This document shows, in pieces, positions 558-11,502 of a DNA stretch of 60,105 nt (positions are counted from its first letter, which is position 1; each line of letters opens with the position of its first letter). The stretch is from Desulfuromonadales bacterium (GTDB lineage: Bacteria; Desulfobacterota; Desulfuromonadia; Desulfuromonadales; BM103), in contig JACZKE010000049.1 in assembly GCA_014860225.1 (NCBI GenBank), positions 1 through 60,105 on the forward strand, written 5' to 3'. The notes beneath the pieces are model-generated. The model had not been told where the DNA came from. It made no database searches and saw only the letters and a program-made list of their open reading frames with translations. The position numbers and the translations under genes were made by a program.

Positions 558-3377
558 TTAAGAGAGATTTGATACGGGAACGGTGGCCAGAGCTTCTCGA
601 AGTGCAGGGAAGCTGAAAGGTTTGTGAATGAAACCGGACAAGCCCTTGCCGGCAAAAAGGGGCGTGATCTCCTGCTCGTTGTAACCGCTGGTGATGATCA
701 CTTTGACTTTGGGGTCGAGTTGACGCATCTCGCCAAAGGCTTCTTCACCACCCATGTGCGGCATAGTAAGGTCCATTACGACCTGGCCAATGGTGCCACT
801 GTATTCTTTGAAAAGCGCCACAGCTTCAAGACCGTTGCTCGCGGTCAGAACCTCGAAACCAAGCTCCTCCAGCATGGCCTTGCCGACTGCGAGTACCATG
901 GCTTCATCATCGACCAGCAACACCTGCCCGCTGCCCTGCCAGACCGAATCAGTCTCAGCGTCATCACATAAATCGGCCGATCCGGTTGCCTTTGGCAACA
1001 GCACTCTGAAGGTGGTCCCTTGACCGATCTCACTGTTGATCTGGATCATACCCTTGTGTCCCCTGACAATGCCCTGTGCAGCGGCCATACCCAAGCCCCT
1101 GCCGGTGAACTTGGTGCTGAAGAACGGATCATAGATGCGATTGAGCGTTTCCATGTTCATGCCGCAGCCGGTGTCCGTGACTTCGAAATAAACATACAGG
1201 CCCGCGCTCAAATCGTCATCGACCCAGGATTCATGCAGACAGTCGCGATCGCAGTTCACCACACCAGTAGAAATGGTAATAACTCCACTCTTTTCGCCAA
1301 GGGCTTCGGAGGCATTAATAATCAGGTTCGTGATGACTTGGCGAAGCTGAGTAGCATCGGTTTCGACAGCGGGAAGGTTCGGGGTGAAATTGAATAGCAT
1401 CTGTGCTTTCTTTGAAATCGCCCCCTCCAGCACATGCGTCATCTCTTCAATCACGCGGTTGAGATCCAGATTTTCGATAACAAACCTGCCTTTCCCCGAA
1501 TAGGCGAGCATCTGGCCGGCTATGTCCGCAGCCTTTTTGGTTGCGATCTGGATCTGTTTCAGATTGTGAACGACAGGAGATTCGCTAGAGAGTCGCAACA
1601 GTGCGAGTTCAGCATGACCAGTCACCGCCATGAGAATATTATTGAAGTCGTGGGCGATGCCACCAGCTAAAATTCCCAGACTCTCCAGCTTCTGGGCATG
1701 CAGCATCTTCTTTTCCATCTGCTGCTTTTCTTCGACCAGGAGCTTTTCCTCGGAAATATCCTGGCCGATCATCAACAGATGCGGCTGTTTTTCCGCAAAG
1801 AATCGGGCGAAGAAGAAACGGACCGACAAGGTCTTGCCAAAAGTTGTAACGATGTCCGTTTCCACCTGCCTGGCCACGCCGTCAGCCAGAACCGTTTCGG
1901 CGACATTGGTCATGCCCGAGTCCTGCAAGGACTTAAGCTCCCGGAAGTTCTGTTTCAGAAGAATCTCGGCGGGGCCACCAGCGATAGACACTGCGGCCTG
2001 GTTGATCTTGAGACAAATGCCGGTATCGCCATCAAAGACCCGGATGCCCATCGGCGACTGCTCGAGCAGAACTTCAGTAAAGTTTAATGCCCTGCGCAGA
2101 GCCTCTTCGGCCAGCTTGCGCTCGGTGATGTCTTCGACACTCGACAAAATAAGCTTTTCACCTTTGAGTTCTATTAGTAAACCTTGCTGTCGAACAGAGA
2201 CTAAATGTCCATCTTTGTGAATATATTCTTTTTCATAGGGGCCATAAACTCCCGATGTGCTGAGAGTTGCCAGCACCTGTTGCTCCTGCAAGACATATTT
2301 ATCCGGAGTAATGTCCCAATAGGTCAGATTTAACGTTTCATCAATCGATCTGCCAATGATGCTGACATAAGCAGAATTGACATCAACCAACTTCCCGTCC
2401 ATACGAGCAACCGCAAGTCCGATCAGGGATTGATCGAAAAGCATCCGGTTATACCTTTCACTGGCCAGCAACTCTCTGGTACGTTTTTTTATTTGGGATT
2501 TCAGGATCATGTTCATGATCACGAGCAGCATGACAACGACCGCGATTGTGGCAAGGACCCAGGGTAGCCATCTGGGGATCATGGAAAAAGAGTGAGAGTG
2601 AGGCTGTATCCCCAGCCAGTTAGAGCTATGTTGGTAATAAACTGACTCTTTGTCCTGTTTCCAAAGGGTCAGTTGTCGGTCGACAATGGTCAGGACGTCA
2701 AAATTTTGACCCTTTTTAACGGCAAAGTATGTGGAGAAGGGAGAGAACTGGATGGTACTCGGTACCAGATCGTAGTTCTTGGTGTGCCGCAGCCCGAAAT
2801 GCTGGGGAGCAACCCCTGCATCGACCACGCCCTCTTTGACGGCGGTAAAAACATCGTCATGCGTGGGGAACTCGAAAATATCGCACTGGACATTGAACTC
2901 CCTGGCTGTTGCTCTGAAATTCGTGCCATTGATGTCCTTGCGCATGACGCCGACCCGTCGTCCGGCCAGATCGGAAATGTTGTTGATGATCCCTTCCGGA
3001 CGGATGTAAACCTGTCCCCAGAGTTCCATTACAGATTCATGGGTAAAATCCATGATTTCTGCCCGATTTTGTGAATAAGCAACGGACATTATGAGATCAA
3101 TGGCACCGCTTTGTAGACGCTCAAGACCTTCGTTCCAGCTACCCGGCACAAACTCCAACTCCCAGTGCGCTTCGCGAGCAATTTCCCTCAGCAAATCCGG
3201 ATAAAACCCCTGAGCCTGACCGGACTCATCCATATAATTAATCGGTTCAAAAGGGAAGATGCCTACACGCAAGGATTTAACTGCTTCCGCCGTCGAAGGA
3301 ACCGACAAATTAGCAGCAGCCAGGAAAAGCATGATAAAGAAGATAAAACGATAGACTATTTTCATATGATCAATCAT
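558..3377 (-). CDS. Hybrid sensor histidine kinase with periplasmic solute-binding sensor, two PAS domains and receiver
   Basis: Membrane sensor kinase of about 939 residues. In order it has a signal peptide, a periplasmic SBP_bac_3-type solute-binding domain (about 35-255), one membrane helix (about 269-291), two PAS domains (about 308-420 and 430-550), a HisKA/HATPase core (about 560-795) and a receiver (about 815-930). The H-box 'AGGIAHDFNNILMAV' has its phospho-His near 576. The N-box Asn is near 688, and the G boxes are 'DTGCGM' and 'GRGLGM'. The receiver shows 'LLVDDE', Asp near 869 in 'MDLTMP', and Lys in 'HKPF'. The start is uncertain: ATG at 3377 is chosen, with TTG at 3395 and ATG at 3365 as alternatives, and none has a clear ribosome site. 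The ligand is unknown; the sensor domain suggests an amino acid or other small polar solute. No output regulator lies next to it. Confidence 0.9.
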   Translation of the reverse strand: MIDHMKIVYRFIFFIMLFLAAANLSVPSTAEAVKSLRVGIFPFEPINYMDESGQAQGFYPDLLREIAREAHWELEFVPGSWNEGLERLQSGAIDLIMSVAYSQNRAEIMDFTHESVMELWGQVYIRPEGIINNISDLAGRRVGVMRKDINGTNFRATAREFNVQCDIFEFPTHDDVFTAVKEGVVDAGVAPQHFGLRHTKNYDLVPSTIQFSPFSTYFAVKKGQNFDVLTIVDRQLTLWKQDKESVYYQHSSNWLGIQPHSHSFSMIPRWLPWVLATIAVVVMLLVIMNMILKSQIKKRTRELLASERYNRMLFDQSLIGLAVARMDGKLVDVNSAYVSIIGRSIDETLNLTYWDITPDKYVLQEQQVLATLSTSGVYGPYEKEYIHKDGHLVSVRQQGLLIELKGEKLILSSVEDITERKLAEEALRRALNFTEVLLEQSPMGIRVFDGDTGICLKINQAAVSIAGGPAEILLKQNFRELKSLQDSGMTNVAETVLADGVARQVETDIVTTFGKTLSVRFFFARFFAEKQPHLLMIGQDISEEKLLVEEKQQMEKKMLHAQKLESLGILAGGIAHDFNNILMAVTGHAELALLRLSSESPVVHNLKQIQIATKKAADIAGQMLAYSGKGRFVIENLDLNRVIEEMTHVLEGAISKKAQMLFNFTPNLPAVETDATQLRQVITNLIINASEALGEKSGVITISTGVVNCDRDCLHESWVDDDLSAGLYVYFEVTDTGCGMNMETLNRIYDPFFSTKFTGRGLGMAAAQGIVRGHKGMIQINSEIGQGTTFRVLLPKATGSADLCDDAETDSVWQGSGQVLLVDDEAMVLAVGKAMLEELGFEVLTASNGLEAVALFKEYSGTIGQVVMDLTMPHMGGEEAFGEMRQLDPKVKVIITSGYNEQEITPLFAGKGLSGFIHKPFSFPALREALATVPVSNLS

Positions 3378-3602
3378 GCGACCCAGCCAGCTCAAAAGGA
3401 CATCACTGCCGAAGGAAAGTTTGAAAGGGAGAGATAACCCGTACTGACAGTACTTTGGGGTTGTCTGAAGACTTTTTGTTCAGAACTTCAATCAAGTATC
3501 TTAGATGTCCTTAGACATAACAGGACCTTCATTTCAACATTCATGGCAGAAAAACAGAGTGTTGAGCCAGTAGCAATTTCAACGGCAAAGTCCAAATGCC
3601 CT

Positions 3603-3776
3603 TTAATCTTTTACCTGCTTGTCAGATTCAGAAGCTGATTTACACCGACAATCACGGTCGGTGCCGGAATCGGGGCGTCAGCCGCCGCGCAAGCCCTTAC
3701 GCTTGATGATGAGACCGGCTGCCAGGCCGGCAAAGGCGAGCAAAAAAAGCACGAGCACGGCGAAATAGACATTCAT
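3603..3776 (-). CDS. nqrM: NqrM-like Na+-NQR maturation protein, probable selenoprotein (UGA at codon 33)
   Basis: A 57-codon gene that ordinary ORF calling breaks. The ATG (3776-3774) overlaps the apbE stop as ATGA. Codons 1-32 encode a membrane helix (about 5-24) followed by 'KRKGLRGG'. Then comes an in-frame TGA (3680-3678), after which the frame stays open for 24 codons and carries a C-x-C pair ('RDCRC') before TAA at 3605. The layout (one N-terminal helix, basic stretch, G-x-C-G-G-like site, later CxC) is that of NqrM (DUF539). NqrM is needed with ApbE to mature Na+-NQR, probably by supplying the Fe between NqrD and NqrE. The TGA falls where the family has its key Cys; from memory, Cys33 of Vibrio harveyi NqrM is the essential one. 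A SECIS-like hairpin follows, so I read codon 33 as selenocysteine. The Gly-Gly after that site and a fourth Cys are not conserved here. The alternative is a nonsense mutation or a 32-residue peptide. Confidence 0.7.
3642..3664 (-). promoter_or_regulatory. Candidate bacterial SECIS hairpin in nqrM mRNA
   Basis: In the minus-strand transcript, 13 bases after the UGA of nqrM, GCACCGAC (3664-3657) pairs over 8 bp (one G-U) with GTCGGTGT (3649-3642). The closed loop is CGTGATT. The loop begins 21 bases after the UGA and has G as its second base. This agrees with the usual description of bacterial SECIS elements: a hairpin directly after UGA, loop 16-37 bases away, and a G in the first two loop positions. 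No T-run follows, so it does not resemble a terminator. SelB binding is inferred. Confidence 0.6.
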
Positions 3777-4807
3777 TGCATTACCTCTTCCACAAATTTC
3801 CGGAAAGCCGGACTGGCGTAAACCACAGTTGACGCTTGGTCATGAATGAGAAAATAAGCGGCAATCTGATGTGTTTCGCAGAGCTGGCGCCCTTTCTCTT
3901 CTCCCAGGACCATCAGCGCCGTGGCCAGCGCATCGGCACGTGCACAGCTCTGATCGAGCACGGTCACCGAAGCCAGCTTGTGACGGATCGGCTTGCCGCT
4001 GACCGGATCCAGAGTATGTGCGTAGCGTTGGCCGTCTTCTATATAAAAGTTACGATAATTTCCTGACGTAGCCAGAGCGGTTTCGGTAAGGGGGAAGATC
4101 GTGGCAACTTCACGCGTATCTTCCAGCGGCTTCTCGATTGCTATCTGCCAGGGGCCGCCGTCGCTGCGGTGACCGGAAATCTTTAATTCGCCGCCAATTT
4201 CCACAAGATAATTATTGATGCCCTGTTGTTCGAGCAGCGTTGCCAGGGCATCCACGGCGTAACCCTTGGCAACCGCAGACAGATCAATATGCAATTCCGG
4301 AACCTGCTTGCTGATGGCTGCCGGTTGCCTTTGCAACTGAATGTTTTCGTAGCCGACCCGGGCAAGGATCTTGTTGATCCGGTCCTCGCTGGGGATTTTC
4401 TTGCCCCGCTCTGTAGCGCCGAAACCCCAGAGTTCCACCAGAGGGCCGACGCTGACGTCAAAAGCGCCGCCGGTCAGGCGACTGATGGTTAAAGAGAGTT
4501 CAATGACCTGTGCGGTTTCATCCGAAATGGCAAACCAGTCTGTACTGATCCGATTGTTGAAGCGTGATATCTCGGACATCGGGTCATAGGTCGACATCAG
4601 GCTGTTGATCTTATCGAGACGCTTTTGCAACTGCAGTTGCAGAGCCTCCGTGTTTGTCCCGTCATTCTTGGGGAGCATGGCGACAGACCAGGTTGTCCCC
4701 ATGGTCTGGCCGGAGAGATGGATGGTCCCAATAATTTTCTCCTGCTGACAGCCGAGAATCAGCGCCACCAGAAGAAAACCAGCCAGAAAGCGAAGTCGTC
4801 TTAGCAT
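3773..4807 (-). CDS. apbE: FAD:protein FMN transferase (ApbE), NQR-linked lipoprotein
   Basis: A 344-residue ApbE-family protein that attaches FMN through a phosphoester bond to Thr in NqrB and NqrC. It starts with a lipoprotein signal whose lipobox 'LILGC' puts the lipidated Cys at residue 20, so it is anchored on the periplasmic side. Family motifs are visible: 'TMGTTWSV' near 35, 'DLSAVAKGYAVD' near 175, and 'ATSGNYRNF' with 'HTLDPVSGKP' near 260-285. It is encoded one base after the preceding ferritin-like gene, and its stop overlaps the nqrM start, so the three are surely co-transcribed. Both predicted targets in this operon carry the D-x-x-(S/A)-G-A-T acceptor motif. A second, more distant ApbE is at 25835-26830. 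Confidence 0.95.
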   Translation of the reverse strand: MLRRLRFLAGFLLVALILGCQQEKIIGTIHLSGQTMGTTWSVAMLPKNDGTNTEALQLQLQKRLDKINSLMSTYDPMSEISRFNNRISTDWFAISDETAQVIELSLTISRLTGGAFDVSVGPLVELWGFGATERGKKIPSEDRINKILARVGYENIQLQRQPAAISKQVPELHIDLSAVAKGYAVDALATLLEQQGINNYLVEIGGELKISGHRSDGGPWQIAIEKPLEDTREVATIFPLTETALATSGNYRNFYIEDGQRYAHTLDPVSGKPIRHKLASVTVLDQSCARADALATALMVLGEEKGRQLCETHQIAAYFLIHDQASTVVYASPAFRKFVEEVMQ

Positions 4808-4808
4808 G

Positions 4809-5273
4809 CTAAAGATCGGCCAGTCCCTGTGCGTGACGGATCATGCGCTTCATGGCTTTTTCTTCCTGGGTTTTCAAGGTCTGAAAAAGGTGGAGGGTCT
4901 CCGCATCGCTGGCGCGTTCGAGCAGATGTGCAAAATAGCTGATCAGATTGCCTTTATAGGTAATCGCTGCCTTCACCAGCTGGTCGAGATCAGTTCTTGC
5001 GCTTTCGTCAAGAATGTCCGCCTCGGCTAGCGGAAAAGCGATCTCCACGCCTTTAAACCAGTGATCAAGGACGTGGGGCGATGCGTCCCGGCAAAATTCC
5101 CCCAGCGCCAGCGCCCGGTGCTGTTCGTGGTCGATCAGGTAGTCGAGCATCAGCTGTACGCGCGGAGAAACGCCGGTTTCCTGCATTGCCTGGTAGTAAT
5201 GGCTGACCGTGCGGTGGTAGTCCGGCGCCAGATGCTGCAGAACGGTTCGTGTCTGTTCGTAGCGCATTGTCAA
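4809..5273 (-). CDS. Ferritin-like helical protein of unknown function in the NQR operon
   Basis: A 154-residue protein that looks almost wholly helical, with no signal peptide or membrane segment. I do not recognise a named family. Several helices carry acidic residues and His spaced as in diiron ferritin-like bundles: 'DHEQH' near 50, 'YFAHLLERA' near 115, and 'QEEKAMKRMIRHA' near the C-terminus. The start is the ATG at 5273, preceded by an AGGAG-like site. It lies between a palindromic insertion after nqrF and the lipoprotein gene apbE, one base from the latter, so it belongs to the NQR transcript. A role in iron handling or oxidative protection of the complex is possible but is only inference. 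Confidence 0.6.
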   Translation of the reverse strand: MTMRYEQTRTVLQHLAPDYHRTVSHYYQAMQETGVSPRVQLMLDYLIDHEQHRALALGEFCRDASPHVLDHWFKGVEIAFPLAEADILDESARTDLDQLVKAAITYKGNLISYFAHLLERASDAETLHLFQTLKTQEEKAMKRMIRHAQGLADL

Positions 5274-5286
5274 CTCCTGAAGCGGC

Positions 5287-5455
5287 CTAGCAGTCTGTCG
5301 GACTATACGGGCCGAAGCGAAAATTTGGATGTTTGAGAACAGATTTTAGCTCATTTGCAGGTTCATAGCCGTAGCTATGGACCCAAAAGGAGCTGAAATA
5401 TGGACCAAACAGCCGGATTTGCAGCCGGCTCATGGATAGTCCGACAGGCTGCTAG
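5287..5455. mobile_element. MITE-like palindromic element inside the nqr operon
   Basis: A 169-base non-coding element bounded by inverted repeats of about 20 bases: CTAGCAGTCTGTCGGACTAT at 5287-5306, and its reverse complement with one mismatch at 5436-5455. Both ends are CTAG. The interior holds a smaller palindrome around 5363-5387 (TTCATAGC...GCTATGGA). It has no transposase, so it would need help in trans. The right end recurs as a partial copy at 29275-29313. The CTAG at 5452-5455 contains the stop codon of nqrF, so the element sits directly on the end of that gene. Confidence 0.7.
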
Positions 5456-6675
5456 AGTCCGAAATCGTCGAACAGGATGTTTTCCTGTTCCACGCCCAGG
5501 TTGAAGAGCATCTCGGTGGCTGCCTTGTTCATCATTGGTGGACCGCACAGGTAATATTCGCAGTCTTCCGGTGCCGGATGGTCGGCGAGATAGCTGTCGT
5601 AAAGATACTGATGGACAAAGCCGGTGGCGCCGTCCCAGTTATCATCGGGTTGCGGATCAGAGAGCACCAGGTGCCATGTAAAGTTGTCAAATTCTTCTGC
5701 CAGAGCGTCAAACTCCTCCACATAGAAGGCCTCACGCAGACTACGGGCGCCGTACCAGAAAGAGATCTTGCGCTTCGAATGGAGTCGCTTGAGCTGATCG
5801 AAAATGTGTGAGCGCATCGGTGCCATTCCGGCGCCGCCACCGATAAAGACCATCTCGGCATCGGTCTCTTTGGCAAAGAATTCGCCGTAGGGACCCGAGA
5901 TCGTCACCTTGTCACCCGGTTTCAGGTTGAATATGTATGAGGACATCTGCCCGGGTGGCGCCTCGGGAGCCGACGGAGGTGGTGGCGAAATGCGCACATT
6001 GAGCATGATGATGCCTTTTTCTTCAGGATAGTTGGCCATTGAATAGGCACGCATGACCGGCTCATCGACTTCTGACCGGTACTGCCAGAGGTTATATTTA
6101 TCCCAATCCTCTCTGAAGCGTTCGGCAATTTCGACGTTTTTGTATTCGACAACATGTGGCGGCGCGTCGATCTGTATATATCCACCGGCGCGGAAATCCA
6201 GCTCGGCCCCTTCCGGCAACTCCAGGACCAGCTCCTTGATAAAGGTTGCGCGGCTCACGTTGGAGCGTACCCGACATTCCCATTTGCTGATGGAGAAGAT
6301 TTCCGCCGGCAGTTCGAGTTCCATGTCCTGTTTAACACTGACCTGACAGGACAGCCGATAGCCCTCATTCTCATCCCGCTTGGTGATGTGGGCGGTTTCC
6401 GTCGGCAGGATTCCGCCGCCTCCGGATCTGATCTTGACCCGGCACTGGCCGCAGGTGCCACCACCGCCGCAGGCTGAGGGGATGAATATGTCATGTTCGC
6501 CTAGCACGTTGAGCAGTTTGCTGCCGGGTTCTACCTTCAGTTTTTCTTTGTCTTTATTGATACTGAGCGTGACCTCACCAGACGGCAGCAACCAGGATCT
6601 GGTGATCAGAATAAGGCCAACCAGAATCATCACGATGCCGGTAAATATGAGTACGCCTAAGCTTATCTCAGTCAT
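5452..6675 (-). CDS. nqrF: Na+-NQR subunit F, NADH dehydrogenase module
   Basis: A 407-residue NADH-oxidising subunit of the Na+-translocating NADH:quinone oxidoreductase. An N-terminal helix (about 6-27) anchors it. A [2Fe-2S] ferredoxin domain follows with Cys69, Cys75, Cys78 and Cys110 ('[10 protein letters not shown]' then 'LSC'). The C-terminal ferredoxin-NADP reductase-like part has the FAD motif 'RAYSMANYP', the nucleotide-binding '[10 protein letters not shown]', and the C-terminal 'YYLCGPPMM'. Length and Cys spacing match Vibrio NqrF. It is the last of six nqr structural genes in order. The TAG stop is provided by the terminal inverted repeat of the palindromic element downstream, so the native 3' end may have been slightly altered. 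Confidence 0.97.
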
Positions 6676-6695: not shown

Positions 6696-7307
6696 TTAGA
6701 GCTGAATACCGGAAAAAGCCATGAACGCCATGGCCATCAGACCGGCGATCATAAAGGTGATCCCCAACCCACGCAGGCCGGCCGGAACATCGGCATATTT
6801 CATTTTCTCACGGATGCCGGCCAGCGCGACCAATGCCAGCGCCCAACCGGCGCCGCTACCAAACCCGAAGACGATACTTTCGGTAAAGTTGTAGTCGCGC
6901 TCAACCATGAACAGTGAGCCACCGAGGATGGCGCAGTTCACAGTAATCAACGGCAGGAAAACGCCCAGCGCATTGTACAGGGCCGGCACATAACGATCGA
7001 GAACCATTTCGAGAATCTGCACCATTGCAGCAATCACGCCGATGTAACAGATCAGGCCGATAAAGGTCAGATCGGTATCGCTCAGGCCGAGCCAGGAGAG
7101 TGCCCCCTCCTTGAGAAGGTACTGATAGATCAGGTTGTTGGCCGGAACCGTGATCGTCTGCACGACGATTACGGCGATGCCGAGGCCGATGGCCGTGTCC
7201 ACTTTTTTGGAAACCGCGAGAAAGGTGCACATGCCAAGGAAAAAAGCCAACGCTATGTTTTCGATAAAAATCGAGCGGATCAGGAGGCTCAGATAATGCT
7301 CTAACAT
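6696..7307 (-). CDS. nqrE: Na+-NQR subunit E
   Basis: A 203-residue membrane subunit with about six helices, homologous to NqrD in inverted topology and to RnfA. It starts '[20 protein letters not shown]' and contains the conserved 'CTFLAVSK' near residue 26 and 'VNCAILGG' near 112. These Cys residues, with those of NqrD, hold the intramembrane iron centre that passes electrons between the cytoplasmic and periplasmic sides. NqrM is thought to help insert that iron. The gene starts 4 bases after the nqrD stop and has the standard length. Confidence 0.96.
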
Positions 7308-7311
7308 CTAT

Positions 7312-7935
7312 CTAGTTCTCCTCTTCGATCTGATCGGTTTTCCAGGTGCGTAAAATCCAGATCAGCAACCCGATGATAAAAAAGGCGCTCGGCGGCAGCA
7401 ACATCAGACCGTTGGGCAGATACCAACCGCCTTCGTTTGTGGTCGACAGAATGGTAATACCGAGCAGTTTTCCGGCACCGAGCAACTCACGGAAAAACGC
7501 CACCAACAGCAGCACCAGGCTGTAACCCAGGCCATTGCCGACACCATCAAGGAAACTGAGCCCCGGAGGGTTCTTCATGGCAAAGCCCTCGGCACGGCCG
7601 AGCACAATACAGTTGGTAATGATCAGACCGACGAAAATCGAAAGTTGCTTGCTGATGCCGAACGCGTAGGCCTGGAGAAACTGGTCGACGATGATGACCA
7701 GCGTCGCAATGATCGTGATTTCGACGATAATCCGGATATTGCTCGGGATCTGCCGACGGATCAGGCTGATGGAAACGTTGGATCCGGTGATAACGAAGGT
7801 GACCGCCAGGCACATGGCCACAACGGTTTCCAGTTTTGAGGTGACCGCCAGGGCAGAGCAGATACCGAGGATCTGCAAGCCGATCGGGTTTTTGTTGAAC
7901 AAGGGGTCCAGAAAAACATCTTTGGCTTTGCTCAT
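7312..7935 (-). CDS. nqrD: Na+-NQR subunit D
   Basis: A 207-residue membrane subunit with about six helices, paralogous to NqrE and RnfE. Conserved sites are '[15 protein letters not shown]' near residue 25 and '[13 protein letters not shown]' near 108; the Cys in each helps form the iron site shared with NqrE. The start ATG overlaps the nqrC stop (ATGA), indicating translational coupling. Family and order in the operon make the assignment secure. Confidence 0.96.
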
Positions 7936-8711
7936 GGTTTGACGCCTTCCTCTTTCAACTTTTCGAGAAAAGGTTTATAGCCGTCTTCTCCCATCCAGTA
8001 GCGGAGCAGGTTCCCGACGCCACGTGCGGTCAACGTCGCTCCCGCCAGACCATCCACCTGATAGACGGCGTTTGCCGAAGCCCTGTCGACCGTACCTTTC
8101 AGCACGTCAATACGGGTCTCGCCCGATGGACCGTAGACTTTCTTGCCGGGCCACTGCTTTTTCCAGGCGGGGTTGTCGATTTCGCCGCCGAGTCCGGGGG
8201 TCTCGCCGTGTTCGTAAAAGGCGAAGCCATTGATCGTGGACAAATCATCGGCCAGGGCGATAAAGCCGTACATGGTCGACCACAGACCCTTGCCATGGAC
8301 CGGCAGGATCAACTGCTGCAGGTCTCCGTCGTTATTCATCACCAGGTAAACGACTTTGTAGCGGGAACGGGACTTGATCTTCGCGAGATCTTGCTCCGGC
8401 GGAATCCGATAACGGGTTTCGGGATCACGCGCGGCTGCCCGGCTATCGAAAGTAATCGGATCGAAATCGCGACTGAACGCGTCTTGCTGCAGATCGACGA
8501 GCCGGGGCTGAATTTTTTCGAACTGCGCCTCGATCGGCCGGCCTTCCTCATAGAGACCTGCAGCCTGCAGGATGTTTTTTCTCTTTTCCTGGATCTTGTT
8601 CTGCTCCTGGCGGCTGTTCAACCCTACGGCTGCCGCCGAGACCAGAATGGAACAGATCAGGCACAGCAGAAAAGCGACGGTCAGAACCTTAGCCGTGCTA
8701 TCCCTCGACAT
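7932..8711 (-). CDS. nqrC: Na+-NQR subunit C, covalent FMN subunit
   Basis: A 259-residue subunit with one N-terminal membrane helix (about 8-30) and a periplasmic FMN-binding domain. The flavinylation motif '[12 protein letters not shown]' places the FMN-carrying Thr at residue 226, close to Thr225 of Vibrio cholerae NqrC; Ala replaces the usual Ser two residues before the Ala-Thr. The modifying enzyme is the ApbE encoded four genes downstream. The start overlaps the end of nqrB by 14 bases and the stop overlaps nqrD, as in a tightly coupled operon. Confidence 0.96.
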
Positions 8712-9906
8712 GACGCAGTCTCCGCTTGATGTGGAATTTGAGGACCATCTGATCGATCAACGGGGCAAACACATTGCCGAACAGGATGGCAAGCATCATC
8801 CCTTCAGGGAAAGCCGGGTTGACCACCCGGATCATGATGCACATGGACCCGATCAGGAATCCATAGACCCACTTGCCCTCGTCGGTCATCGCTCCGGAAA
8901 CCGGATCGGTCGTCATAAACACCAGACCGAAGGCAAAACCACCAAGCACCAGATGCCATTGTGGGCCGAGTTCGAACATCGGATTGGTGCTGCTGCCGAT
9001 GAGCGGAAACAATATTGACAGGAACAAGGCGCCGCTCAGTGCCGAGAGCATTATACGCCAGGAGCCGATGCCGGTCAGAACCAGGACTGCAGCACCAAAC
9101 AGGCAGGCCAGGGCGGAGGTCTCCCCCATCGAGCCGGGGATGGTGCCGATAAAGGCGTCGAACCAGCTGATTGTGGCGGTGATCGCTTCGACGCCTCCTT
9201 CTGCAGCTCGGCTTAATGCGGTTGCCCCACTCACACCGTCGGCGGCAACCCAGACCTTGTCGCCGGAGATCTGCGCCGGGTAGGCGAAAAACAGAAAGGC
9301 GCGTCCGGTCAAGGCCGGGTTCAGAAAGTTTTTGCCGGTGCCGCCGAAGATCTCCTTGCCGATGACGACGCCGAAGCTGATGCCGAGTGCCACCTGCCAG
9401 AGTGGCAGAGTCGGCGGGCAGATCAGCGGGAACAGCGAACCGGTCACCAGAAAGCCTTCATTAATCTCATGGCCGCGGATACTGCTGAACAGGGCTTCCC
9501 ATAAGCCGCCGACGATATTGGTCACCAGGTAGATGGGTATGAACCATGCCGCTCCGAGCAGCAGGTTGTCAAGCATCCGATCGGGGCTGGCGGTGTAACC
9601 GAGGACGTTGAGCAAGGCGCCGCGCCAGCCTTCGACACTGCCGCCCGAGGTCTGCATGATGCTGTTGGCCTGATAACCGGTATTCCACATGGCCATGAAA
9701 AAACAGGGGAGCAACGCGAACACCACGGTAATCATCACGCGTTTCAAGTCGATGGCGTCCCTAACATGTGGAGCCCCGGCTGTGACCTCCCCCGGAGTGT
9801 ACAGGAAGCTGTCGGCCGCCTCAAAAAGAGGATAGAGCCGTGCAAGTTTGCCACCCTGTGTAAAATGAGGGCGAAGCTTGTCGAGAACAGTGCGCAGTGC
9901 TTTCAT
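8698..9906 (-). CDS. nqrB: Na+-NQR subunit B, quinone- and FMN-binding membrane subunit
   Basis: A 402-residue polytopic membrane subunit, relative of RnfD, with covalent FMN and a role in Na+ transfer. The motif '[10 protein letters not shown]' marks the ApbE-modified Thr at residue 229 (Thr236 in Vibrio). The conserved '[20 protein letters not shown]' lies at about 185-204. The start at 9906 is chosen over upstream frame extensions because it gives the family N-terminus '[15 protein letters not shown]'. It has an AGAGGG ribosome site and overlaps the nqrA stop as ATGA. Confidence 0.96.
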
Positions 9907-11243
9907 CAGCCCTCTTCTTCTATTTTCTGTAAGGCCTGGCGTAAATGATGACCGTAATTCATTTTCCCCGAACAGACAAAACTGCACAAAGCCAGATCCT
10001 CTTCATCCAGCTCCAGGCAGCCGAGATTCTGCGCAAGGTCAGTATCCAGGGTAAGCAGCGATCGAAGCAGCCAGGTTGCCTTGATGTTAAGCGGCATCAC
10101 CTTCTCAAATGAGCCGATCGGCACCATCGCCCGCAAGCTGCCGTGCGTGCTGGTGGTCATCGGCAACGGACGACGCGGCAGCAGCGCCGAAGCGAAGACA
10201 TGCTTGATTGAGAACTGTCTCAGCCCCGGCTTGGCCCAGCCGAGGAATTCACGCAGATGATCTTCTTCGAGAACGGAAACCTGGTTGTGATAGCGGCCAA
10301 GGTAATTGCTGGCTTCTGCAGCGCTGTGACCATTCAGGACAGATCCTGAAATGACCCGGTTGTTGCCGGCATGCAGCTGGCCGACGAGCAGCTCTGACAG
10401 GCAGGCACCAATACGAGTGCGGATCAGTCGCGGGTTTTTGACTGCCGGGCCGCAGAGCGCAATGATTCTTTCGGTGAGGAGTCTGCCGGTGAGAAACAGG
10501 TGGCCGATGGCAATCACATCCTGGTAGCCAATATGCCAGACGGTGCGCTCTTGATCGACGCGTTCGAGGAAGTGAATATGGGTGCCAACCAGGCCGGCTG
10601 GATGACAGCCGGAAAATTCACTCACGGTAATCCCCTCAGGAGCCTCAATCCGCGCATCCGGCTTTTTGCAAAGGTAAACTTTTCCTTCAGTCAGGTGGCG
10701 GATGACCTTCAAACCGGCGGTGAACTCTGTCGTTTTCTCGGCAATCACGACCTGCGGATCCGCCGCCAACGGATTGGTGTCGATCGCGGTGACAAAAAGT
10801 GCTGCGGGACGGGTTCCCGGCGTTGGTATCTTACTGTATGGACGGGTGCGAAGTGAGGGCCACAGACCGGAATTGATCAGTTGCTGTTTAACCTCTTCAG
10901 TGGAAAGTTGATCGAGCCGGTCGGCTGCTGTTGCCGGAAAGGTTTGTTCTGCACTCCCGGCGACCTCGATAACCAGAGAAAGGAATACCCGTCGCTCTCC
11001 CCGGTTGATGGCGACAACCTTGCCCGGTGCCGGGGAAGTATAGAGGACCTTAGGATTCTTTTTGTCGGAAAACAGCGGCTGACCGAGACTGACCTGCTCC
11101 CCCTCGCTAACCAGAAGGGTCGGTTTCATGTCCTGATAATCACCACCAACAAGGGCAACGTGCGAAACCGGCGAACCGGCCTCGACCATCATTGCGGGAG
11201 CACCGCAGATGGGAAGATCGAGCCCTTTTTTGATCTCAATCAT
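9906..11243 (-). CDS. nqrA: Na+-NQR subunit A
   Basis: A 445-residue cytoplasmic subunit, the first gene of the operon. The start at 11243 gives '[16 protein letters not shown]', the usual NqrA N-terminus, with AAGGA upstream; the open frame extends to 11441 but the extra 66 residues look non-coding. Family features are '[17 protein letters not shown]' near 38 and '[17 protein letters not shown]' near 200. NqrA binds quinone or its analogues at the cytoplasmic face with NqrB. The 260 bases upstream must hold the operon promoter, but no clear -35/-10 pair was found. Confidence 0.96.
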
Positions 11244-11502
11244 GGCCGATCCTTCAGGCTCGTTGTAAGGAGCCACGATATCGTGAGCACTCGATGACTC
11301 AGCGAAGGTTGGAATTCGGAGTGTCAATCTGGAATTCATCCAGAAAAAAATATTATCTATTGACGATTGAATTACTCTACTCTTTTTACCAGAGTTCAGG
11401 CGCTGAGACAAACCAAGTTTCAACGCCCAGATACAGAGCAAACTGACGTCATCATCAAGGGGCAGATAAGCCCTGTCATAGGCGACAAACGCTTACTGTC
11501 AA

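Follow-up and report, generated by a model that had tools for sequence, protein, structure and literature searches.

A predicted selenocysteine form of an NqrM-like protein in the Na+-NQR operon of a Desulfuromonadales bacterium

Is the small gene behind apbE in the Na+-NQR operon of a Desulfuromonadales bacterium cut short by a stop codon, or does it encode a maturation factor with selenocysteine (Sec) in place of a cysteine? The question is raised by a stretch of DNA of 60,105 nt (the window), which is contig C59 of the 3.94-Mb genome G000 (68 contigs, 100% complete by table). An earlier note on this DNA had described a frame directly 3' of apbE and overlapping its stop, with a membrane helix, a basic stretch, GG-UGA at codon 33 and a further 24 sense codons with a CxC pair, in an operon holding all NQR parts and ApbE. 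These descriptions are borne out by the frame and by its surroundings (Table 1), and the strand, which had not been given, is the minus strand; a forward-strand frame at the locus was rejected as lying on the wrong strand. The ATG of the nqrM-like gene (3776-3774) and the TGA stop of apbE (3775-3773) share an ATGA overlap, and the frame reaches its TAA at 3605-3603. When read with Sec, the product has, in order, one hydrophobic stretch, KRK, GGU33 and C43-x-C45, the cysteine pair being part of the 24 sense codons between the TGA and the TAA. Residues ~3-24 of the predicted protein are taken as a single membrane helix. The operon contains a complete nqrA-F set and apbE, as assigned by family matches or operon position. 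The true nqrA start is probably near 11243; the mechanical start of the open frame (11441) is further upstream, and its first 66 residues fall outside the family match.

Table 1. Features of the NQR operon and of the nqrM-like gene, in window coordinates
Feature	Position	Strand	Remarks
nqrM-like gene with in-frame TGA	3603..3776	-	57 codons + TAA
TGA codon 33, inferred selenocysteine	3678..3680	-	column is Cys in 60/70 matched genomes
SECIS-like hairpin CACCGAC-CGUGAUU-GUCGGUG	3643..3663	-	loop starts 21 nt after UGA; overlaps TDRDCRC codons
hydrophobic stretch, then KRK	3705..3770	-	read from sequence, ~residues 3-24
C43-x-C45 pair	3642..3650	-	invariant in 27-row alignment
apbE, FAD:protein FMN transferase	3773..4807	-	PF02424; stop overlaps nqrM start
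ORF154, unnamed	4809..5273	-	no family match; conserved in these NQR operons
nqrF	5452..6675	-	TIGR01941
nqrE	6696..7307	-	TIGR01940; Cys27 (LGMC), Cys125 (VNC)
nqrD	7312..7935	-	TIGR01939; Cys26 (LGIC), Cys109 (TNC)
nqrC	7932..8711	-	FMN-binding domain PF04205 + operon position
nqrB	8698..9987	-	PF03116 + operon position
nqrA open frame	9906..11441	-	NF003759 + TIGR01936; match spans residues 67-511

Two neighbours of the gene are recorded here in their own right. A hybrid sensor kinase (SBP_bac_3, PAS, HATPase and response regulator domains) is encoded directly downstream on the same strand, at 558-3395. Between nqrF and apbE lies ORF154, a frame of 154 residues with no Pfam or NCBIfam match, which tblastn matched in 38 of the 40 NQR loci that were fetched. 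In 36 of these the match lies 3' of nqrF or ahead of apbE and in two it is upstream of nqrA; some matches have only 23-32% identity. It is an unnamed NQR-associated protein that deserves a separate study.

The relatives of the gene were collected by a product-based search of 136 genomes of the order (E <= 0.01), which gave 65 matching genomes, and by searching 277 genomes of the class with a profile (E <= 0.001), which gave 70. From the order search, G135 (E 0.003) and the secondary weak hits of G082 and G089 were set aside, as were those of G029 and G072 from the class search. One further candidate, G102 (E 0.0088, with one TGA), was rejected, as its frame has no hydrophobic stretch and lies over a pilin-like frame (by eye). 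Beyond the class, a draw of 395 genomes of the phylum contained six matching genomes, of which two were weak and outside the class and neither of these had a stop; a genome contig scan gave 12 loci in records titled Deltaproteobacteria, Desulfuromonadales, Desulfuromonas or, in one case, Desulfobacteraceae. The earlier note had raised the prospect that UGA and Cys exchange at codon 33, and this is what the alignment of the best matched stretch from all 70 genomes of the class presents: column 33 is TGA in 10 genomes and Cys in the other 60 (TGC in 41, TGT in 19). No other stop occurs in any of the 70 stretches, and the single stop of the ten is always TGA and always in this column. The TGA genomes (G000, G007, G010, G011, G016, G017, G047, G071, G073 and G123) belong to three families (f1, f8 and f18).

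A sequencing or assembly error at the TGA, with TGC or TGT as the true codon, has to be weighed at this point, as TGA and TGC are one base apart and most of the named relatives are metagenome assemblies. However, it is contradicted by the same TGA in nine other genomes, and seven of the ten match public records that carry names of their own; moreover, all ten share a hairpin geometry, described below, that is absent from 59 of the 60 Cys forms. We regard an error as having a practically negligible chance of being the explanation.

One could also argue that the UGA is a real stop, so that the gene yields a membrane peptide of 32 residues and its downstream part is the decaying remnant of a nonsense pseudogene. 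UGA does serve as the stop of apbE, nqrC and nqrA in the same operon, and dN/dS among the ten TGA forms is higher after the UGA (0.39 for codons 34-49) than before codon 33 (0.17), both being Nei-Gojobori values over all pairs, which are non-independent. A decaying gene would nevertheless gather other stops and frameshifts, and thus a frame kept intact in ten genomes of three families, with TGA at the same codon and C43-x-C45 in 10/10, counts against a pseudogene; the loss of frame after the UGA that the note had named as a possible objection is not seen. The presence of the hairpin wherever the TGA stands and the occurrence of the selenocysteine machinery, both treated below, point in the same direction. 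A nonsense pseudogene is thus very improbable.

The distribution of the two forms was followed on a 39-row tree built from NqrD, NqrE and NqrF together, from which the Sec/Cys gene itself was excluded and in which the Cys labels of G046, G031, G472, G037, G041 and G101 were confirmed. The Sec/Cys label requires seven state changes on this tree, at least three of them forced by starred branches. Since 31 of 500 shuffles were as low as seven changes, the label is only loosely clustered. The closest exchange is between G015 (TGC) and G016 (TGA). The tree places these two members of one genus as sister rows with an SH-aLRT of 97, and 13 of the 171 nt of this gene differ between them. Altogether, the comparative evidence makes the claim of a predicted selenocysteine-NqrM a strong one.

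The UGA is followed by a SECIS-like hairpin. In the window it has 8 bp, a folding energy of -11.4 kcal/mol and a 7-nt loop at a spacing of 21 nt. The Fig 2A legend of PMC13188914 sets the limits of bacterial SECIS elements (bSECIS) at a stem of 4-16 bp, a loop of 3-9 nt with G in its first two positions, a spacing of 16-37 nt and a folding energy of -7.5 kcal/mol or lower. Compared with the model as this legend states it, the window hairpin is within the limits, with G at loop position 2 followed by U, whereas two of the ten TGA forms (G007 and G071) are outside some of the limits as scripted by us. By the same script the strict limits were passed by 8/10 TGA forms, 8/60 Cys forms (seven of them with another geometry) and 37/1000 mononucleotide shuffles. 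The loop is found at +21 in all ten TGA forms and reads CGUGAUU in eight, CGUGACU in one and AGUGACU in one, above a stem with 6 or 7 of 7 pairs. If the geometry is fixed as a 7-nt loop at +21, at least 6/7 pairs and G in the first two loop positions, it is kept in 10/10 TGA forms versus 1/60 Cys forms, a contrast between related sequences and hence not a probability. The one Cys form that still has the hairpin is G015, the sister of G016; this is most simply explained by a recent change from Sec to Cys, with the SECIS retained as a relic.

Tests of the fold itself gave more modest results. Covariation in the hairpin is weak, the observed value being reached by 63 of 500 shuffles. Synonymous resampling with the peptide given yielded a mean z of -1.11 in the ten TGA forms versus +0.19 in 25 of the 60 Cys forms, G016 being the only TGA form below p 0.05, and the window stretch folds moderately better than shuffles (z -1.66). 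The Rfam scan of window positions 3000-4900 had no matches and hence no SECIS, and in free folding of the 55 nt after codon 33 in 35 sequences the TGA and Cys forms could not be told apart, judging the energies by eye. The hairpin overlaps the codons of the (G)RDCRC stretch, therefore its conservation is not independent of the protein and part of it could be at the protein level. This stretch is more uniform in the TGA forms than in the Cys forms (DKECHC, ESDCQC, SHDCRC, QHDCKC etc.), and we read the uniformity as RNA constraining protein.

The genome itself was searched for the parts needed to read UGA as Sec, and all four that the earlier note had listed (selA, selB, selC as tRNA-Sec, and selD) were found. 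The selA (617.7 bits), selB (394.4 bits) and selD (362.4 bits) genes form one cluster at C41:5788-10103, and tRNA-Sec scores 74.9 bits with the anticodon TCA (read by eye). It can be added as a separate observation that selD (C41:9180-10103) is a Sec gene in its own right: its TGA lies in frame within TSGUAAK, and a 9-bp hairpin follows at 33 nt. SelA, SelB, SelD and tRNA-Sec are each above the cut-off in 8/10 TGA genomes. None of the four is above it in G010, which is 59% complete; in G073 selA is below the cut-off and selB is present only as a piece at a contig start, adjoining selD; selD is the only part missing from G016, and tRNA-Sec the only one missing from G011, in a search that covered 150 of 361 candidates. 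Nine of the ten TGA genomes therefore have at least three of the four parts, if the selB piece of G073 is included. SelA is also above the cut-off in 59 of the 70 matched genomes, and the Cys genomes mostly have the machinery too. Thus the machinery is a necessary trait, but by itself it does not predict Sec at this gene.

A further alternative is that the UGA is decoded as another residue, e.g. Trp or Gly, by near-cognate readthrough or reassignment. The column is Cys in 60/60 non-TGA matches and never Trp or Gly, UGA terminates the neighbouring genes, and the genome holds tRNA-Sec together with selABD; such decoding would be extremely unlikely. As judged from these genomes, Sec is very probably inserted at codon 33 of the gene.

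The second part of the question is whether the protein is an NqrM. The earlier note had assigned it the layout of NqrM (DUF539) with the UGA on the conserved Cys, and the assignment is upheld by profile alignment and gene position, but not by a PF04400 match, the fourth Cys or the PEPCD motif. In hmmscan at E up to 10, none of five family members, the window protein among them, was matched by PF04400. Four genuine NqrMs, used as controls, score 78.6-84.4 bits on PF04400 and match only from residue 22-23 on; three of them (Klebsiella, Enterobacter and Providencia) are annotated NqrM and the one from Aeromonas was assigned by PF04400. The model covers largely the tail that differs here, therefore we read the misses as a matter of the reach of the model and not as absence of the family. 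When the 27-row family alignment was compared by hhalign with five gamma-proteobacterial NqrMs, the fifth being that of Proteus (assigned by its position after apbE and by similarity), the two aligned over 51 columns, including the helix and the basic stretch, with 98.4% probability and an E of 1e-14. U33 stands opposite the GSC cysteine, which in the Aeromonas NqrM is residue 33 (counted by eye), and C43-x-C45 stands opposite CDC. A single BLASTP comparison of the window protein with Proteus NqrM gave 6e-06 and another pairwise BLASTP 1e-05.

The likeness extends to general build and gene order. As in the gamma-proteobacterial NqrM (DUF539, PF04400), the protein is small, with an N-terminal hydrophobic stretch, a basic stretch, GxC at 33/34 and CxC, and it is encoded after nqrF or apbE; the order in Providencia is nqrF-apbE-nqrM. 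Among 40 fetched larger loci (34 placed from the locus search and six from the profile-search coordinates) the gene follows nqrF, or apbE where nqrF is off the contig, on the same strand as the NQR genes. It differs from the gamma-proteobacterial NqrM in having TGA for the GSC cysteine, a spacing to CxC that is two residues shorter, no PEPCD motif, no long charged tail (PEPCD-RKK) and no PF04400 match. There are three conserved Cys positions here (U33, C43 and C45) versus four without variation across the five genuine NqrMs; the window protein is without a fourth, and the further Cys that occur in a few TGA forms (G047, G071) are not conserved. The Cys-type NqrM-like proteins of Desulfuromonadia (60/70) share with it the family, the column and, in the fetched loci, the operon, and 59/60 of them differ in lacking the hairpin geometry. 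Judged by homology and position, the window protein is thus a divergent, Desulfuromonadia-type NqrM and is not a PF04400 member by score.

One would argue that a Sec protein of this kind need not be an NQR maturation factor and could be a small membrane protein of its own kind, with a metal or redox function, whose gene accompanies the operon. The PF04400 miss and the absence of the PEPCD-RKK tail and of the fourth Cys are in favor of this. So is the distribution within the order, where 57 of 64 genomes with nqrF also match the family (counted by hand) and seven do not (G019, G032, G081, G096, G097, G098 and G103); a loose pattern, applied to all seven but G097 up to ~2 kb after nqrF or to the contig end, found no candidate. 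In G032, G096, G097, G098 and G103 the enzyme may mature by another route or with a factor that has diverged further. On the other hand, the hhalign result and the BLASTP match to Proteus NqrM connect the protein to the known factor, and it occupies the same place as nqrM of Providencia. A complete Cys-type nqrM elsewhere in the genome, which the earlier note had held up as a possible refutation, was not found: the family profile has one match only, the nqrM-like gene, and PF04400 has none there (0/1) or in 247 genomes of the phylum (0/247), although its controls were silent in both searches and absence is not proved by them. A separate protein is therefore unlikely, and the window protein quite probably has the role of an NqrM in NQR maturation. 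On a neighbouring subject, no nqrM or apbE is annotated beside nqrF in alpha-proteobacterial plasmid operons of Ruegeria, Marinibacterium and Qingshengfaniella, whose gene tables are incomplete; the NqrM factor of those operons may be elsewhere or unannotated.

We consider that the gene very probably encodes a Sec-containing NqrM, a maturation factor of Na+-NQR, which is translated in full. Its start would be coupled to the apbE stop. The SECIS hairpin 21 nt past UGA 33 would recruit SelB with Sec-tRNA(UCA), Sec would be inserted, and translation would go on through the CxC pair to the TAA. The product would be anchored in the membrane by one helix; Sec33, Cys43 and Cys45 follow closely after the basic stretch and hence probably face the cytoplasm, where the three residues may form an iron-handling site. 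Kostyrko et al. in 2016 reportedly found that, among the cysteines of V. harveyi NqrM, only the loss of Cys33 abolishes maturation. Sec33 would take the role that Cys33 has in other NqrMs and bind or pass iron or an Fe-S unit. The recipient of the iron would be the four-cysteine site between NqrD and NqrE. In both proteins of the window the LG(I/M)C and (T/V)NC cysteines that one would expect at the cluster site are retained, and we take them to be its ligands; NqrD and NqrE match PF02508 and both are open frames with no in-frame TGA. As a ligand, a selenolate would be softer and more acidic, and easy to reduce again. The selenium might either touch the iron or act in redox release; direct ligation of iron by Sec33 has, in our estimate, an even chance.

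The earlier note knew of no described selenoprotein NqrM, and its view still stands: the literature that we searched contained no report of an NqrM with selenocysteine, although most subscription papers were outside the search and an unseen report is possible, and no report linking a selenoprotein with Na+-NQR. The table of a 2026 catalogue of 119 selenoprotein families or subfamilies is likewise without NqrM (PMC13188914). Table 1 of that catalogue includes a predicted Sec form of 'NADH:ubiquinone oxidoreductase subunit E' (PF02508, an Rnf/Nqr membrane subunit). Going by this entry, the two cases have in common a predicted selenium in an NQR/RNF-related protein and differ in that PF02508 is a cluster-bearing subunit family and not an assembly factor. 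The nine new selenoprotein families of deep-Sep, as presented in the part of PMC12013277 that we consulted, include none named NqrM and three unnamed hypothetical proteins, for which the consulted part of PMC13188914 gives the NCBIfam models NF049953, NF041197 and NF049942. These models were not among the matches in an NCBIfam scan of 27 family members. An Nqr complex and 31 selenoproteins have been reported together, NqrM not being named in the consulted portion of that report (PMC2702500).

Our evidence inclines us, on balance, towards a wider view: that this is a new selenoprotein family with Sec on the reputedly indispensable Cys of NqrM, that an iron-handling selenolate loads the buried [2Fe-2S] site of the sodium pump, and that Sec was swapped with Cys several times in one class, with the result that assembly of a respiratory complex would be selenium-dependent in these bacteria. 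Under the standard code the gene stops at codon 33, and the family escapes PF04400, therefore NQR operons here can seem to be without NqrM. If the finding is true, it adds one more family to the selenoprotein catalogue and provides a case of selenium dependence in an assembly factor for a respiratory complex. Residue 33 would then be marked as the chemically working atom of NqrM, and the selenium would offer a natural spectroscopic handle (77Se, Se K-edge) on iron binding by NqrM, for which the close Sec/Cys pair of G015 and G016 permits a matched comparison.
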